Shown here: positions 11,009 through 15,294 of the stretch, piece by piece
Layout: each line of letters begins with the position of its first letter
Numbering within the stretch: the stretch's first letter is position 1
IMG/VR virus record: IMGVR_UViG_3300032087_002454
Location: 1 to 45,373 of that record
Source of the DNA: a virus
Direction: 5' to 3' (one strand)
Length of the DNA: 45,373 nt
Program-made: the position numbers and the translations under genes
The notes under the pieces: generated by a model
Told to the model about the DNA's origin: nothing
Database searches by the model: none
The model's input: only the letters and a program-made list of their open reading frames with translations

Positions 11009-11216
11009 CCTGTTGACAATAAGGGAAGATAATAGGAACTATTATCGTCCCTTATCATGTGCGTATATAGGATTGTATACAATCCTTAAACACCTGTGTA
11101 TATAACGGAACTCTGTTCCGTTATCCCGTGTGTTGAACTTATCTTTGATAAGTTTAAGAGATTGGCTGGCGGCCTCTTGTATCGAAGATACAACTTTGAT
11201 AAACTGCTGGAGACTT

Positions 11217-11260
11217 AGGGGAAGTAGCCCTTGAACGAAGTGAAAGGGCGTACTTACCCT
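11217..11260 (+). promoter_or_regulatory. Structured leader element with GAACGAAGTGA loop, copy 1
   Basis: The inner stem GCCCTT/AAGGGC (11227-11232 with 11244-11249) closes the 11-nt loop GAACGAAGTGA (11233-11243). An outer stem (11217-11226 with 11251-11260) adds nine pairs and one G.A mismatch, with a single bulged G. It ends 21 nt before the ATG of the first early gene at 11282, whose CGGAG is outside the stem. The loop can form A-U, C-G and a GAA triloop flanked by tandem G.A pairs. Confidence 0.7.
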
Positions 11261-11281
11261 TACCAACCGGAGAAAATTGCC

Positions 11282-11536
11282 ATGATGAGAAAATGCATTT
11301 GCCACACCGAATCCGTAGCCTTTGGCTACGTAGACTGCGAAGCTTGTGAAACAAGCTTAATTGACAGAGAAGCTCTCGATTGCAAAGCAATCGAAGCTTA
11401 CCCAGAGTCTTCGACTCTGACTGAAGCAATAACAAAGTATCTAGCGAAGCTAGACCCCCACTCTTTAGAGTGGGACTCTTGGATCGAAGCTTATACCGAA
11501 GGTAAACTGGCAAACTATTTTGGAGTTCAGATATGA
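11282..11536 (+). CDS. Early small protein 1, Cys-rich N-terminus, hairpin-dense gene
   Basis: 84 residues from ATG 11282 (CGGAGA upstream). The N-terminus MMRKCICHTESVAFGYVDCEAC has CxC and CxxC pairs that could bind one zinc. The remainder is acidic and helical (TLTEAITKYLAKLDP). The first gene of the rightward operon, so probably expressed right after infection. Its coding DNA holds at least six perfect hairpins, so codon choice here seems tied to DNA or RNA structure. Its stop overlaps the next ATG (ATGA). No family recognised. Confidence 0.7.
   Translation: MMRKCICHTESVAFGYVDCEACETSLIDREALDCKAIEAYPESSTLTEAITKYLAKLDPHSLEWDSWIEAYTEGKLANYFGVQI
11314..11474 (+). repeat. Six short perfect hairpins inside early gene 1
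   Basis: Stems and loops: 11314-11330 (7 bp, TTT), 11340-11358 (8 bp, GAA), 11376-11394 (8 bp, AAA, with a further AAGCT/AGCTT extension), 11403-11419 (7 bp, TTC), 11440-11454 (6 bp, GAA) and 11457-11474 (7 bp, TTTA). Stem sequences are unrelated to each other; only the geometry is shared. They do not keep one reading-frame phase. Confidence 0.9.
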
Positions 11537-11712
11537 TCACAGCATACACAGGTTGGCTCAACAGCATAGCTGATGAGCTTGAAGTACCCAGCTTTCAGCT
11601 GGGTTGTAGTCCTGCTGAACAGCAGGGTTCCCCTGAAGTCCGAGAGATTAACTTCGTTAATCACTCGGGATGTCCTGAAATGGACTTGACTCAAGTCTAC
11701 GACTTGAGTTAG
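11533..11712 (+). CDS. Early small protein 2 (59 aa), hairpin-dense gene
   Basis: 59 residues, beginning MITAYTGWLNSIADELEVPS and ending MDLTQVYDLS. The ATG overlaps the preceding stop (ATGA), which supports it as a real coupled gene. Acidic, mixed structure, no recognised motif. Four perfect hairpins fall within its 180 bp, the last ending at the base before the TAG stop. Function unknown; the position suggests an early host-takeover role. Confidence 0.6.
   Translation: MITAYTGWLNSIADELEVPSFQLGCSPAEQQGSPEVREINFVNHSGCPEMDLTQVYDLS
11586..11709 (+). repeat. Four short perfect hairpins inside early gene 2
   Basis: 11586-11604 (8 bp, TTC), 11611-11626 (6 bp, GAAC), 11646-11662 (7 bp, TTC, extended by CCGAG/CTCGG across an A.A mismatch to 11640-11668) and 11689-11709 (9 bp, TAC). 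Confidence 0.9.
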
Positions 11713-11726
11713 ACTTGGCAGCTTAC

Positions 11727-11766
11727 GTAACACACCCTTCTCATTTATGAGAAGGGAGTGTGTTAC
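11727..11766 (+). repeat. Strong intergenic hairpin between early genes 2 and 3
   Basis: GTAACACA/TGTGTTAC (11727-11734 with 11759-11766) stacks on CCCTTCTCA/TGAGAAGGG (11735-11743 with 11748-11756), with a two-base bulge. This is the longest stem of the region. No T-run follows, so it would be a weak terminator at best. An RNA-processing or stability site is as likely. The outer GTAACACA also occurs in the stem of the GAACGAAGTGA element at 14822. Confidence 0.8.
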
Positions 11767-11783
11767 TTACTAGGAGATTTGAA

Positions 11784-12101
11784 ATGCAAATTGCAGACAT
11801 GTTGGATCCAACCTTGTTGGATGAGATGAAAGATGCCTTCGGCATCTACGATGATGATCCTCGTGATTACATCGAAGATGTAATGGGATACAGGGATGGA
11901 ACATCCCTTTGGTATGCTGCTTGGCTCTTCGGCATCATCGTAGATGATGACGTTGATTCACTTGGTTGCCTTTGGCAACCTGACGGACAAATAGCCTCTG
12001 GCTATTACATACCTGATGACTTCGATACCGAAGTTGATCTGATCACTATTGACAATCCCAATAGGGATTGTGTTGCTTGGGATGCTAAGCCTCTGGCTTA
12101 G
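11784..12101 (+). CDS. Early small acidic protein 3, hairpin-dense gene
   Basis: 105 residues from ATG 11784, with AGGAG 8-12 bases upstream. Very acidic, with repeated Asp runs (IYDDDPRDYIEDV, IIVDDDVDS), aromatic patches (LWYAAWLFG) and no Cys pair. Highly acidic early phage proteins are often DNA mimics or inhibitors of host DNA-binding enzymes, but nothing specific shows that here. Ten perfect hairpins tile the 318-bp gene, the last containing the TAG stop. Confidence 0.7.
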   Translation: MQIADMLDPTLLDEMKDAFGIYDDDPRDYIEDVMGYRDGTSLWYAAWLFGIIVDDDVDSLGCLWQPDGQIASGYYIPDDFDTEVDLITIDNPNRDCVAWDAKPLA

Positions 12102-12134
12102 TAGTCCCCTTAATTTAGGGAGCTTTGCTCCCTA
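11806..12134 (+). repeat. Eleven short perfect hairpins in and after early gene 3
   Basis: 11806-11822 (7 bp, CTT), 11831-11847 (7, TTC), 11866-11884 (8, GAA), 11892-11908 (7, GAA), 11933-11949 (7, GTA), 11964-11980 (7, TTT), 11990-12006 (7, TCT), 12019-12034 (6, ATAC), 12052-12071 (8, AATA), 12085-12101 (7, TCT) and, beyond the stop, 12116-12134 (8, TTT). Centres are spaced about 20-35 bp, an almost regular tiling. Confidence 0.9.
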
Positions 12135-12146
12135 TTGGAGATTCAA

Positions 12147-12302
12147 ATGCTTGACATACACGTAGCATCATGGGCGCACAACATCATCGAAGATGATGTG
12201 GAACTGGTTGTCACTTACGATGACCTCATTGAAGCTGAACTACAAGCTTTGCTTGTAGAGTATGAAGAAAACACAGATCCTACGGATCTGGATATGTGGT
12301 GA
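12147..12302 (+). CDS. Early small acidic protein 4 (51 aa)
   Basis: 51 residues from ATG 12147 with TTGGAG upstream: MLDIHVASWAHNIIEDDVEL, then an acidic helix (DDLIEAELQALLVEYEEN) and an LDMW end. Similar in size and acidity to its neighbours. Three perfect hairpins lie in the gene and a fourth follows the stop. No family recognised. Confidence 0.6.
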   Translation: MLDIHVASWAHNIIEDDVELVVTYDDLIEAELQALLVEYEENTDPTDLDMW

Positions 12303-12324
12303 AAATCCAACACCGAAGGTGTTG
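12181..12324 (+). repeat. Four short perfect hairpins in and after early gene 4
   Basis: 12181-12199 (8 bp, GAA), 12240-12258 (8 bp, TTT), 12274-12290 (7 bp, TAC) and 12308-12324 (7 bp, GAA). The last lies six bases past the TGA and abuts the larger structure at 12326. Confidence 0.9.
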
Positions 12325-12325
12325 T

Positions 12326-12374
12326 TCATCCCCTGAAGCCCCTCGAACGAAGTGAGAGGGGCGTAAGGGGATGA
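12326..12374 (+). promoter_or_regulatory. Structured leader element with GAACGAAGTGA loop, copy 2
   Basis: The inner stem GCCCCTC/GAGGGGC (12338-12344 with 12356-12362) closes the identical 11-nt loop (12345-12355). The outer stem TCATCCCC/GGGGATGA (12326-12333 with 12367-12374) is separated from it by a 4x4 internal loop (TGAA/GTAA). It lies 52 nt before the ATG at 12426. Confidence 0.7.
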
Positions 12375-12425
12375 CCCACCCCATCACGGCAATTTTGCCA
12401 ACCGATACGAGTCGAGGAGACTAAC

Positions 12426-12824
12426 ATGACAGCACCAACAAGAACGAGCAACAAGCAGATCCTAGATGCAATCTTGGATCTTACCGTGGCGATCAAAGGC
12501 ATGGCAACTCCAGTTGCTGCACCTGTAGCACAGCAAGCTGTGCCCTTCATGCAACCAGTTGCTATTGCAACTCCAGCTGAAGTAGCGGCAGCTACTCAGC
12601 CGAAGGCTGAGACACCTGTTAAGATCGACGCTGCTTACCTTAACCACGTTAGTGGTGGCAAGGCATTGGCTTATGCCAATAAGACTGGTGAACAGGTTGT
12701 TATTTATGCTCGCCGCAATGGTCATGGTGAAACCAAGCTTGCCTACTGCGCTGCCTCTAAATGGACTGGCCTTAAGGACAAGTCCAACTTGGGAGCTGTC
12801 GCTACCGTCGAACCTACTTCGTAG
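12426..12824 (+). CDS. Early protein 5, Ala/Pro-rich linker with C-terminal domain
   Basis: 132 residues from ATG 12426, with GAGGAG upstream. Residues 1-28 form a charged helix (NKQILDAILDLTVAIKG), 29-65 an Ala/Pro/Val/Gln linker without charges, and 66-132 a compact basic domain with KALAYANKTGEQVVIYARRN and CAASKWTGLKDK. The layout looks like an oligomerising helix joined by a flexible linker to a small binding domain. No family recognised. Its TAG stop lies inside a hairpin. Hairpins in this gene are weaker (mostly 5-6 bp) than in the previous three. Confidence 0.7.
   Translation: MTAPTRTSNKQILDAILDLTVAIKGMATPVAAPVAQQAVPFMQPVAIATPAEVAAATQPKAETPVKIDAAYLNHVSGGKALAYANKTGEQVVIYARRNGHGETKLAYCAASKWTGLKDKSNLGAVATVEPTS
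12504..12680 (+). repeat. Seven hairpins inside early gene 5
   Basis: 12504-12517 (5-6 bp), 12528-12543 (6, CAAG), 12557-12572 (6, TATT), 12581-12596 (6, GGCA), 12595-12611 (7, GAA), 12643-12656 (5, GTTA) and 12665-12680 (6, TTAT). Loops here are mostly four bases and stems shorter, so the array fades. Confidence 0.75.
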
Positions 12825-12870
12825 GTTCCTTATCGAGGGCACTAGCTATGCTAGTGTCCTCTATTAAGGG
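12810..12870 (+). repeat. Hairpin over the stop codon plus long stem-loop after early gene 5
   Basis: 12810-12828 (8 bp, TTC loop) contains the TAG at 12822-12824. Directly after it, 12835-12861 forms a 12-bp stem (one G.U) with a TAT loop, extended by CCTTA/TAAGG (12828-12832 with 12865-12869). No T-run follows. It closes the hairpin-dense block and may act in termination or transcript processing. Confidence 0.7.
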
Positions 12871-12970
12871 ACTTAAACGTGTAGCACCTAGCGTCATGGT
12901 GTGGTGCCGACCGGGGCATCTTACGTAGTAAGACCGGAGTCCAAGTGTAGCTGGCACTATATCCATGCAA

Positions 12971-13061
12971 TCCAATGAGGTGAGGTGGCACACACACACC
13001 TGGGATCTAGCCAATAGGCTAGTGAAATGGTGGTTCGCAGGTTCAAGTCCTGCCATTGGAA
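12971..13061 (+). tRNA. tRNA-like gene with abnormal, hairpin-interrupted anticodon region
   Basis: A perfect 7-bp acceptor stem (TCCAATG 12971-12977 with CATTGGA 13054-13060), discriminator A, and a canonical T-arm (GCAGG-TTCAAGT-CCTGC, 13037-13053) are present. A D-arm-like GTG-AGGTGGCA-CAC (12980-12993) has the A14/G18G19/A21 pattern. The length of 91 nt is about 18 more than a type I tRNA. The middle contains a 6-bp hairpin CTAGCC-AATA-GGCTAG (13007-13022) and no 5-bp stem with a 7-nt loop, so I cannot assign an anticodon. CCA is not encoded. It is either a degenerate tRNA, a tRNA with an inserted hairpin, or a tRNA mimic. Confidence 0.5.
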
Positions 13062-13093
13062 CTTATTTTTTAACGCACTGTGTATTTAACATA

Positions 13094-13227
13094 ATGCAAT
13101 TGAAACTGGAGAACCTGCCTTAAAAGTAGGCCGCATCATATAGGATGGTCGGAGCCATAGGTAGAGGTAGCAGTGCAGGATAACAAAGCGCGTGGCTACC
13201 ACCTTTATGCAATGGAAATTGGAGAAC
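13094..13227 (+). repeat. Duplicated leader with ribosome-binding site
   Basis: ATGCAATTGAAACTGGAGAA (from 13094) and ATGCAATGGAAATTGGAGAA (from 13207) match at 18 of 20 bases. The second copy supplies the GGAG for the gene at 13231. The first opens a nine-codon frame (MQLKLENLP, 13094-13123) with no gene behind it. It looks like a translation-initiation module left by a duplication or gene loss. Confidence 0.6.
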
Positions 13228-13230
13228 GAT

Positions 13231-13449
13231 ATGTTAGTTAAAGGTATTAACTTTAATGGTTGTGACATCTGCTTTGATAGCACTATCAGGGCTAACCATG
13301 CCTATGTATCACGGGGTGCTACTGGTCGGTACTGTGCAGTACTGTCAGTATGTAACGACTGTGCTCCTAAGGAACACAATAAAGTGTGGGAACTAAGTGA
13401 AGCCCGCACATGGTGTGACTCCCAACCTAATAGCTGGAGTGAATTCTAA
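13231..13449 (+). CDS. Small zinc-finger-like early protein
   Basis: 72 residues from ATG 13231 (GGAG 8 bases upstream). It has NGCDICFDS near residue 10 and RYCAVLSVCNDCAPK near residue 35, two Cys groups that can hold one zinc. The C-terminal tail is Trp/Ser-rich (SQPNSWSEF). ATG 13207 is in frame but lacks a ribosome-binding site. The stop overlaps the next ATG (TAATG). Function unknown. Confidence 0.65.
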   Translation: MLVKGINFNGCDICFDSTIRANHAYVSRGATGRYCAVLSVCNDCAPKEHNKVWELSEARTWCDSQPNSWSEF

Positions 13450-13640
13450 TGCCACACAAGTATAAGGGTAAGACACCTGTTAAGACAGGTGATAGTGTGC
13501 ATCTCATCGTAGATGATGAGGTGTACCAGACTGTGCGAGTGAAGGATACACTAGCTGTACAGTTCACGGTGTCCGTTAATAAACGGATACGTTTCTTCTT
13601 CTACGAAGACCGAGGTGTAACATGGAAGCACAAGACCTAG
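13449..13640 (+). CDS. Small basic beta-rich early protein
   Basis: 63 residues: MPHKYKGKTPVKTGDSVHLIV then alternating strands (VYQTVRVKDTLAVQFTVSV) and a basic aromatic end. The pattern resembles a small barrel (SH3 or OB-like), but it is too short to assign. Coupled to the genes on both sides; the next gene starts inside its last codons. Hairpins at 13474-13491 (7 bp, TAAG) and 13572-13587 (6 bp, AATA) lie in the gene. Confidence 0.6.
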   Translation: MPHKYKGKTPVKTGDSVHLIVDDEVYQTVRVKDTLAVQFTVSVNKRIRFFFYEDRGVTWKHKT

Positions 13641-13837
13641 AATATGGCGATCACTTTAAGCTAGCTGAGCCACTAGATAAGGGCAATGACCTGCTAGTGT
13701 GGTTAGGTGACGAGTATGATGAGGACTGGTTGTGGTGTCTCATAGTTGAGACGTTTGTACCAGTAGCAGTTAGTAAGTTCTACGAGGTAGAACTGTGGCA
13801 TAAGGTGCAAGGGAAATGGGAGATAAGAAACGATTAG
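13622..13837 (+). CDS. Small acidic early protein
   Basis: 71 residues, MEAQDLEYGDHFKLAEPLDK followed by an acidic aromatic segment (WLGDEYDEDWLWCLIVETF) and FYEVELWHKVQGKW. Beta-rich and acidic, complementary in charge to the basic protein encoded just before it, with which it overlaps. A small beta-barrel is likely. No family recognised. Confidence 0.6.
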   Translation: MEAQDLEYGDHFKLAEPLDKGNDLLVWLGDEYDEDWLWCLIVETFVPVAVSKFYEVELWHKVQGKWEIRND

Positions 13838-13962
13838 TGAAGCCTAGTAAGGGGCATAGCCCCGCTATAATGGGTAAAGGTGCACCCCATAAAGACCGCA
13901 CCAAGTACACAAGGAAGCAGAAGCATGAGAAACTGGCTATTAAAGAAACTAAATGGGATTGA
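13816..13962 (+). CDS. Small basic protein (48 aa)
   Basis: 48 residues from ATG 13816, overlapping the end of the previous gene by 22 nt. It reads MGDKKRLVKPSKGHSPAIMG then KGAPHKDRTKYTRKQKHEK. A short, Lys/His-rich, probably disordered nucleic-acid-binding peptide. The next gene starts within it at 13925. A 5-bp GGGGC/GCCCC hairpin lies at 13851-13863. Confidence 0.5.
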   Translation: MGDKKRLVKPSKGHSPAIMGKGAPHKDRTKYTRKQKHEKLAIKETKWD

Positions 13963-14098
13963 TAGAGCACAGTACACTAGGCTATACGCCCAGTACCTTG
14001 ACGCACACTCTCAGTGGAACAAGACCATTGAGAAGTTCGAGATGCAAGGTGCTTGGGAACAAGTGAAGCTAGAGCGTAAAGCTCGGAGGTTAAACTAA
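13925..14098 (+). CDS. Small helical basic protein (57 aa)
   Basis: 57 residues from ATG 13925 with AGGAAG upstream: MRNWLLKKLNGIDRAQYTRL, then YAQYLDAHSQWNKTIEKFEM and a basic end. Predicted all-alpha, possibly a helical hairpin or coiled coil. The stop overlaps the next ATG (TAATG). Unknown function. Confidence 0.55.
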   Translation: MRNWLLKKLNGIDRAQYTRLYAQYLDAHSQWNKTIEKFEMQGAWEQVKLERKARRLN

Positions 14099-14286
14099 TG
14101 TACATAGTTAAGCGTACCCTTCCCAATGAGGGTAAGGTTGGCTACCTTAAGGATACAGGCTGGGTGTACTACACCATTGGTATGCCTATTGAATTAGATG
14201 GAGTGCTCCGCTTCACCCAAGGTGAACGGAACTATAACATCCTACCTGCCACGGATCAGTGGCTATACTACGGGAGCTACAAATGA
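14098..14286 (+). CDS. Small beta-rich early protein (62 aa)
   Basis: 62 residues, MYIVKRTLPNEGKVGYLKDT followed by GWVYYTIGMPIELDGV and an aromatic end (WLYYGSYK). Predicted small beta sheet. The next gene's ATG overlaps its final codons. A 6-bp hairpin (14212-14226, CAA loop) lies inside. No family recognised. Confidence 0.55.
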   Translation: MYIVKRTLPNEGKVGYLKDTGWVYYTIGMPIELDGVLRFTQGERNYNILPATDQWLYYGSYK

Positions 14287-14462
14287 ACACACAAAATAAG
14301 CAGGACTGTCTGATGGTACTGGATCGCATCCTTAAACACACACCATTAGAGATGCCTGAATACATAGGCTTAGGCTATGCTCGACACTTAATCGAGGGCA
14401 TGGAACCAGAAGATGACAGTAACGAGGCATATGAGGAGTACACTAATGAACCGCCTAACTAA
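14283..14462 (+). CDS. Small helical acidic protein (59 aa)
   Basis: 59 residues from ATG 14283, overlapping the previous stop. MNTQNKQDCLMVLDRILKHT then a helical centre and an acidic tail (EPEDDSNEAYEEYTNEPPN). It looks soluble and helical. The next gene starts inside it at 14446. Unknown function. Confidence 0.5.
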   Translation: MNTQNKQDCLMVLDRILKHTPLEMPEYIGLGYARHLIEGMEPEDDSNEAYEEYTNEPPN

Positions 14463-14676
14463 ACAGGTGATTGAAGATGTGCTCACACTAGGTGTGATCC
14501 TATGTCTGACAGGCATGACAGTGGTAGCTATACTGGATGCAGTGTACCCTAATGTACCTGCTGCAATGGAACGTGAAGCTATTGAATCGAGGGTTCATCT
14601 GCCCTCTAAATGCAGAGAGTTCTATAACACCAGTACAGATGAGTGGCAACGGTGTATGATGGTGGAGAAACGCTAA
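14446..14676 (+). CDS. Small single-pass membrane protein A
   Basis: 76 residues from ATG 14446. A short basic N-terminus is followed by one hydrophobic segment (LTLGVILCLTGMTVVAILDAV, about residues 13-33) and a charged C-terminus with two Cys (CREFY, QRCMMVEKR), which could form a disulfide if periplasmic. It is followed at once (TAATG) by a second membrane protein gene. Early inner-membrane phage proteins often alter host envelope or exclusion functions; nothing shows which here. Confidence 0.6.
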   Translation: MNRLTKQVIEDVLTLGVILCLTGMTVVAILDAVYPNVPAAMEREAIESRVHLPSKCREFYNTSTDEWQRCMMVEKR

Positions 14677-14888
14677 TGAAAACAGTAACTAAGATAGCCC
14701 GTCTTATAGGGTTAGGTACATTATATGTACTGGATTTCTGGGCAATGGTGTTCTTAATACCCGGTGTCTTACTGCTTGCGCTCGTGTTGTTACTGAAAGA
14801 GGGGCTGGATACCCTCTCCTTCGTAACACAAGAACGAAGTGATTGTGTTACGGAAGGAGAGGATGATGAAGCTGAAGTTAACGAGTGA
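14676..14888 (+). CDS. Small membrane protein B
   Basis: 70 residues from ATG 14676: MKTVTKIARLIGLGTLYVLD and a long hydrophobic run (FWAMVFLIPGVLLLALVLLL) of one long or two tightly turned segments, then an acidic cytoplasmic-like tail (TEGEDDEAEVNE). Coupled to the membrane protein gene upstream. Its 3' end contains the third GAACGAAGTGA hairpin and the ribosome-binding site of the next gene. Confidence 0.6.
   Translation: MKTVTKIARLIGLGTLYVLDFWAMVFLIPGVLLLALVLLLKEGLDTLSFVTQERSDCVTEGEDDEAEVNE
14818..14857 (+). promoter_or_regulatory. Hairpin element with GAACGAAGTGA loop, copy 3, at a ribosome-binding site
   Basis: CGTAACACAA/TTGTGTTACG (14822-14831 with 14843-14852) closes the same 11-nt loop (14832-14842). 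The stem extends by CCTT/AAGG across one bulged G, so AAGG of the AAGGAG Shine-Dalgarno (14854-14859) of the gene at 14863 is paired. It lies inside a coding region, unlike copies 1 and 2. Confidence 0.7.
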
Positions 14889-15294
14889 TCCAGCTGGATT
14901 GCCGGGCATCTATTATGATGCGTGGTACCAGATGACACCGGAGGATAAGGAGAAGGGCTGGGCATGGGATAGGATGCGTATTACTAGTTCCACTGCTGCT
15001 ATGCCTAGTGAGGAGCCGCTGCTAATAGCAACTGCTGCTGTTGAAATAGAAACAGACATGGAGGAGCGTATAATAGCTGTCCTTGAGGAGTTCAGTGATA
15101 GTGATGAGGATACAACTGAGTACGAGAAAGGTAGTGGCCAAGAACTGGACGAAGGGGATCAATTTCGGCACGTTCTACCAGCTGCACAAGATGCAGAAGA
15201 CGATGGCATCCCAGTGCTTTACCCTGAAGCAGCTGTTGATAGAGCAGAGGACACTCGACCAGCAATCGACTTCATACAAGTGGTGTTGACATGA
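14863..15294 (+). CDS. Acidic early protein (143 aa)
   Basis: 143 residues from ATG 14863, or 142 from 14866; AAGGAG lies just upstream. The N-terminal third (MMKLKLTSDPAGLPGIYYDA, then EKGWAWDRM) is folded-looking. The rest is strongly acidic with long Glu/Asp runs (FSDSDEDTTEYEKG, AAQDAEDDGIP). No motif recognised. Translation may be modulated by the hairpin that covers its Shine-Dalgarno. Confidence 0.6.
   Translation: MMKLKLTSDPAGLPGIYYDAWYQMTPEDKEKGWAWDRMRITSSTAAMPSEEPLLIATAAVEIETDMEERIIAVLEEFSDSDEDTTEYEKGSGQELDEGDQFRHVLPAAQDAEDDGIPVLYPEAAVDRAEDTRPAIDFIQVVLT

Follow-up and report, generated by a model that had tools for sequence, protein, structure and literature searches.

What role could be played by hairpins that share one apical loop on unrelated stems and stand ahead of early phage genes? 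The question is raised by an uncultured podovirus-type virus record (IMG/VR IMGVR_UViG_3300032087_002454), whose whole stretch of 45,373 bases is called the window here. A sequence-only reading of this DNA had noted three identical 11-nucleotide (nt) loops at 11233, 12345 and 14832, with start codons downstream at ATG 11282, 12426 and 14863, and had proposed a selected structure with several members. An exact search of the window returned the 11-mer GAACGAAGTGA at these three positions only, all on the + strand, and the start codons lie as described. We interpret the hairpins as an intercistronic element that acts at the mRNA level at ribosome-binding sites, a reading to which we assign a probability of roughly 0.55. 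The tip of the element is probably read by a putative factor or kept for stability.

Fold and covariation of the hairpins

Next to the loop, the arms form an uninterrupted run of 6 (copy 1), 7 (copy 2) or 10 (copy 3) Watson-Crick pairs, and the three stems are mutually unrelated. A basal stem is present below a single bulge or internal loop, so that the hairpins are even longer than had been claimed (Table 1). Folding as RNA gave copies 1, 2 and 3 minimum free energies of −22.8, −33.4 and −30.1 kcal/mol, with z values of −5.0, −6.9 and −7.5 against dinucleotide shuffles. As had been suggested, the loop GAACGAAGTGA can be folded further into a G.A/A.G tandem, an A-T and a C-G pair, and a GAA triloop. 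RNAfold formed the two inner tip pairs at all 18 sites of the window and its relatives, where each hairpin comprises 15 to 25 Watson-Crick pairs. The pairing of copy 3 with its own Shine-Dalgarno sequence was borne out; from this sequence the in-frame ATG 14866 is better spaced than ATG 14863. The placement of all three copies among early genes was likewise correct. A triloop hairpin stands directly ahead of copy 2, and one is also found directly ahead of the corresponding hairpin in the related contigs L010, L013, L027 and L029.

Table 1. Hairpins and neighbouring features of the window (aa, amino acids; ORF, open reading frame)
Feature	Position	Strand	Remarks
Copy 1 (site a), hairpin	11216..11262	+	Loop 11233-11243; upstream of ATG 11282
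Copy 1, stem	Upper 11227-11232/11244-11249	+	Bulged G 11250, then basal stem
Copy 2 (site b), hairpin	12326..12374	+	Loop 12345-12355; upstream of ATG 12426
Copy 2, stem	Upper 12338-12344/12356-12362, basal 12326-12334/12366-12374	+	
Copy 2, symmetric internal loop	12335-12337/12363-12365	+	
Copy 3 (site c), hairpin	14813..14862	+	Loop 14832-14842; gene start 14863/14866
Copy 3, stem	Upper 14822-14831/14843-14852	+	Bulged G 14853
Copy 3, Shine-Dalgarno AAGGAG	14854-14859	+	In 3' arm
Triloop hairpin CAACACC-GAA-GGTGTTG	12308..12324	+	Directly ahead of copy 2
Array of ~30 perfect triloop hairpins	11027..12933	.	Stems ≥6 bp (6-10 bp); leader and ORFs
132-aa ORF below copy 2	12426..12824	+	Kept in relatives; without known domain
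Small membrane-protein-like ORF	14676..14888	+	3' end holds copy 3, overlaps following gene
ORF below copy 3	14863..15294	+	Shine-Dalgarno within hairpin

Relatives were gathered from IMG/VR by protein homology, using the 132-aa ORF and CobS, and not by the loop. These searches yielded more than 12 distinct relatives, nine of which bear the element in addition to the window. Some of the fetched loci are duplicates from one contig (L003=L008, L001=L015=L017, L002=L018, L010=L019 and L020=L026), and the gene calls on the contigs are mechanical ORFs. In total, 18 sites were found, with the loops GAACGAAGTGA, GAACAAAGTGA, GAGCGAAGCGA, GAGCAAAGCGA and GAGTCTTACGA. They recur at three places: site a lies before the first early ORF, site b before the 132-aa ORF, and site c at the end of the small membrane-protein-like ORF that precedes the next gene.

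In a gap-free alignment of the 18 sites (23 columns), 136 of 136 pair cells held standard Watson-Crick pairs, with 68 double changes and no G.U. The two inner tip pairs also covary (AC/GT, GC/GC and GT/AC). Shuffled controls were paired at a mean of 51.8%, and none of 500 matched the observed covariation score; when the partners were slid, pairing fell to 42-66%. Because the site search itself had demanded pairing, two fairer tests were run, one on the flanks of the loop strings and one with a free tandem mismatch. Exact matches to the five loop strings numbered 19 in ~345 kb, all of them on the sense strand and with at least six flanking Watson-Crick pairs. With any tandem mismatch permitted at the loci found by protein homology, GA/GA gave 17 hairpins and the other listed types one each, the reverse complement excepted. 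A covariance model of the core, a check of the kind that the sequence-only reading had proposed, was run on 20 whole contigs; at E ≤ 0.01, with the E-values of so short a model being rough, it matched the sites already found and no other part of these contigs. Compensatory change had been claimed from the three unrelated stems of one genome, which alone do not establish it, whereas the double changes among the relatives argue strongly for compensatory evolution.

All sites of the window, L010, L013, L027 and L029 have A-T as the first inner pair, and all sites of L008, L020, L025, L030 and L015 have G-C. A trans-acting reader shared within each clade would be the simplest cause of this uniformity. 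Gene conversion of the 11-nt tip is unlikely, since the stems within one genome are unrelated.

Spread and placement at ribosome-binding sites

Exact-pattern scans of IMG/VR with 17-18 bases returned 75, 66 and 6 stretches. After stem extension, long GA-tip hairpins were recognised in about 20 more contigs that differ in gene content, each with one to six distinct copies on unrelated stems; because these contigs were picked by the loop, they show the breadth of the element and not its frequency. All fetched sequence contained 55 distinct long hairpins. Inner pair 1 was A-T in 39, G-C in 15 and C-G in one of them, inner pair 2 was C-G in 44 and T-A in 11, and the triloops were GAA (33), CTT (8), GTA (7) and others. 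Nearly the same tip and placement are found in several unrelated phage groups, most of them uncultured. With these matches upstream of genes in unrelated phages and the covariation among the relatives, the proposal of a selected structure with several members has held up.

A Shine-Dalgarno sequence and the start of an ORF of at least 50 aa follow within 90 nt in 72% of the 39 distinct hairpins considered. Of random positions on that strand 11% were followed in this way, and on the other strand the figure was 8%. Starts mostly lie 20-90 nt past the hairpins. At site c, the hairpin or a counterpart with another tip falls within the last codons of the upstream ORF in eight of the nine phages examined. 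In the window, the 3' arm of this hairpin also carries AAGGAG ahead of the ATGs at 14863 and 14866, a layout that, as judged from the sequence, is typical of translational coupling. The Shine-Dalgarno sequence is embedded in a hairpin arm also in L121 and L128.

The proposed mRNA-level element builds on comparative evidence from sequences: the hairpins fold and covary, their GA/GA tip is invariant and on the sense strand, they lie close to ribosome-binding sites, and site c has the layout described above. Each copy, a sense-strand hairpin of ~15-25 pairs that is interrupted once by a bulge or internal loop, stands immediately before a ribosome-binding site, is capped by the fixed GA/GA tandem, two pairs and a triloop, and would act as a structural element of the phage mRNA. 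At site c, the hairpin would couple the translation of the two genes by blocking initiation until ribosomes on the upstream ORF open the stem. The hairpins of sites a and b may set the processing, stability or initiation of the downstream cistron, and the fixed tip could be what a phage or host factor recognises in trans. Sequestration of the Shine-Dalgarno sequence was ruled out as a general role because copies 1 and 2 leave theirs free; it applies to the third site and to some sites in other phages.

The hairpins could alternatively be RNase III-type sites like those of T7, at which early polycistronic mRNA is cut just above each gene; the tip would then only nucleate folding. The early-gene sites of T7 are likewise intercistronic hairpins, ~20 bp long, interrupted once internally and located shortly before gene starts. 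The intercistronic stems of 15-25 pairs with one interruption, together with the distance to the starts, agree with this explanation. We consider this explanation improbable, given that the tip is the most conserved part of the element, yet bacterial RNase III is not known to require a fixed loop. T7-type sites are not known to have a fixed apical loop, unlike the hairpins described here, and site c lies within coding sequence.

The triloop array and DNA-level explanations

The copies sit within a dense array of triloop hairpins, which the sequence-only reading had missed. Perfect hairpins with a 3-nt loop and a stem of 6 bp or more number 30 between 10.95 and 13.1 kb of the window, compared with 0.4 in shuffles (maximum 3); elsewhere in the window their density is 0.7 per kb. 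Many of the array hairpins lie inside ORFs, where 1-8 per ORF were observed against means of 0.03-0.6 in synonymous codon shuffles. The corresponding region of nine relatives holds 4.6-12.6 triloop hairpins per kb. Triloop hairpins with stems of 7 bp or more are also dense (4-7 per kb) in the genes of L121, L128, L166 and L178, which are contigs of other phages selected by the loop. Of 220 array hairpins, 178 are closed by a C-G pair, and GNA loops, counted on either strand, are ~2.5-fold enriched. Hairpin centres are common to relatives above chance (7 of 17 for L008-L020 vs 0.15 expected). Among these common hairpins, for which the search required the inner four pairs, 111 pair changes were double Watson-Crick changes and one was G.T; transversions were as frequent as transitions.

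Several observations weigh against an element acting in mRNA. G.U pairs are avoided, with none in the 136 core cells, which would be unusual for a structure selected as RNA alone, and the arms contain one T.G and three C.A beside 368 Watson-Crick pairs. The stems of the array hairpins likewise consist of Watson-Crick pairs only, and their C-GNA-G loops, which occur on both strands, are stable as DNA. The Shine-Dalgarno sequence of sites a and b lies outside the hairpin. The tip of site a is not indispensable, because L010, L027 and L029 keep the long hairpin there with a paired or different tip. No binding factor was identified: for the 132-aa protein, a candidate, fold prediction and a PDB search gave no recognisable match and nothing below E 0.7, and thus no support as a binder.

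The near-absence of G.U pairs would also allow a DNA-level role or maintenance by template switching. In a DNA-level role, single-stranded or extruded hairpins of the early region would serve replication, DNA entry or transcription start, and the triloop array would belong to the same system. The C-G closing pairs and the enrichment of GNA loops fit such a role, as does the location of the array at a GC-skew minimum between divergent operons, a position confounded by gene direction. In phage N4, C:G-closed G..A triloops extrude, and the promoter hairpins of the virion RNA polymerase need this same closing pair and loop for extrusion; their C-GNA-G triloops, conserved tip, partly variable stem and extrusion as short DNA hairpins resemble the element (PMC4496689). 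The element differs from the N4 promoters in having GAA on the non-template strand, far longer stems and the GA/GA tandem. An N4-type promoter was ruled out by the orientation, as all tips are sense and the GNA loop lies on the wrong strand, and by profile scans of the large proteins, which within the sensitivity of hidden Markov models recognised no phage RNA polymerase or virion RNA polymerase. Neither the sense orientation of all GA tips nor their proximity to ribosome-binding sites is needed by a DNA function, and a DNA-level role appears rather unlikely to us.

Template switching of DNA is documented to generate and preserve perfect stems (PMC8794818). By this process the hairpins, chiefly those of the array, might have been made and kept with little or no function, in agreement with the double changes lacking G.U intermediates and with the transversion frequency noted above. 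In L015 (481-600) and L018, which are 98.7% identical, one hairpin has both arms rewritten and a 21-nt indel is present, a possible template-switch event. As a full account, however, template switching is quite improbable: it leaves unexplained why the GA/GA tip is invariant and on one strand, why the hairpins keep fixed gene positions close to ribosome-binding sites, and why the array is confined to one region. The readings are partly compatible, since template switching could preserve stems that are used as RNA.

A widespread phage system that combines these features is conceivable but doubtful. Its early genes and leaders would be full of stable C-NNN-G triloop hairpins, and its ribosome-binding sites would stand behind longer hairpins with the near-universal GA/GA tip. 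One type of factor, present in many hosts or phages, would read the tip, template switching would keep the stems perfect, and pairing at the DNA level would be part of the mechanism. If the proposed function is true, a near-universal tip on free stems at ribosome-binding sites would constitute a regulatory signal overlooked by gene annotation and Rfam. The hairpin-filled coding regions raise the question why perfect, G.U-free hairpins occur every 30-60 nt, and phages with both features allow direct tests of the RNA-level, DNA-level and mutational explanations.

Known elements and genomic setting

With Rfam 15, no family matched at the gathering score; relaxed thresholds gave chance-level matches only (E 0.25-1.9), none of them over the three hairpins. 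A paper describing the element was not found in open-access full text. Hairpins with a fixed tip and free stems are already known as a kind of phage signal. The combination of a GA/GA-capped tip, free stems and placement at ribosome-binding sites apparently occurs in no Rfam family, paper found or known phage element.

A fixed tip on a variable stem is shared with boxB of the lambda N antitermination system and with other phage operator hairpins, and the location in an early operon, on the sense strand and in several copies per genome is also boxB-like. Lambda boxB measures ~15 nt, has a pentaloop of purines and lies beside boxA, whereas the element has an 11-nt GA-NN-triloop-NN-GA tip on a stem of 15-25 pairs and lies at ribosome-binding sites. 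The short stem with a purine pentaloop is not found here, and no N-like gene is known, although no search was directed at one or at an adjacent boxA. The extra-stable DNA mini-hairpin d(GCGAAGC) is contained exactly in the tip variant GAGCGAAGCGA but not in GAACGAAGTGA or GAGTCTTACGA, and it is a physical motif rather than a biological family. A kink-turn was ruled out, as there is no three-nucleotide bulge and the tandem G.A is flanked by Watson-Crick pairs on both sides. An intrinsic terminator was ruled out by the lack of a T-run directly past any of the three hairpins.

REP palindromes (GTAG/CGTC) also have structured tips, and retrieved GTCATTCT-GAGCGAAGCGA-AGAATC repeats carry identical 11-mer tips. 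REPs have related stems, a foot tag and a high copy number (PMC3733652). In contrast, the present hairpins have unrelated stems, 1-6 copies and fixed gene positions; a GTAG/CGTC REP was ruled out because neither a constant GTAG/CGTC foot tag nor a recurring stem is present. The retrieved repeats, which came from the same IMG/VR scans, are short and of bacterial type, with 5-bp stems. This REP-like bacterial repeat was found in L115, L126, L133, L145, L147, L151 and L155, and it has a TGTC foot similar to that of the CGTC REP class. Two copies of GAACGAAGTGA are also contained in a conserved intergenic 67-nt enterobacterial piece near rnhA on E. coli plasmids of ~110 kb (e.g. NZ_CP023851.1 93525-93591, L179), which occurs at 232 plasmid places. 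These plasmids are probably phage-plasmids. The piece was not counted as the element because its stem is just 5 bp and it is antisense to its neighbours.

The − strand of the window carries the late genes (terminase, head-tail connector, tail and internal virion protein), and the + strand carries the early genes cobS, cobT, primase, helicase, DNA polymerase, ribonucleotide reductase and endonuclease I. Vibrio phage ICP2 (Zobellviridae) was among the best cultured matches, with ~27% identity in CobS and polymerase. This nearest cultured relative has no triloop hairpins of at least 7 bp and no GA-tip hairpins. The early region of the window had no nucleotide match in 50,697 phage records, and one scan of GTDB genomes with a cobS alignment found no relatives. 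Megablast of two contigs picked by the loop against cultured phages gave no match, and no cultured phage with the GA-tip element was identified.

Past the 132-aa ORF, the non-coding stretch 12838-13100 folds better than shuffles (z −3.3), and GGGGCATCTTACGTAGTAAGACCG is common to the window and L010. Positions 12971-13060 are tRNA-like, with an acceptor-like TCCAATG/CATTGGA and a T-arm GCAGG-TTCAAGT-CCTGC, and were called by neither ARAGORN nor Rfam. Directly 3' of the 132-aa ORF, the window, L010 and L013 have a conserved terminator-like hairpin of the GGGCACTCC-TTT-GGAGTGTCC type. In contrast to the G.U-free array, this hairpin keeps a G.T pair in three phages.

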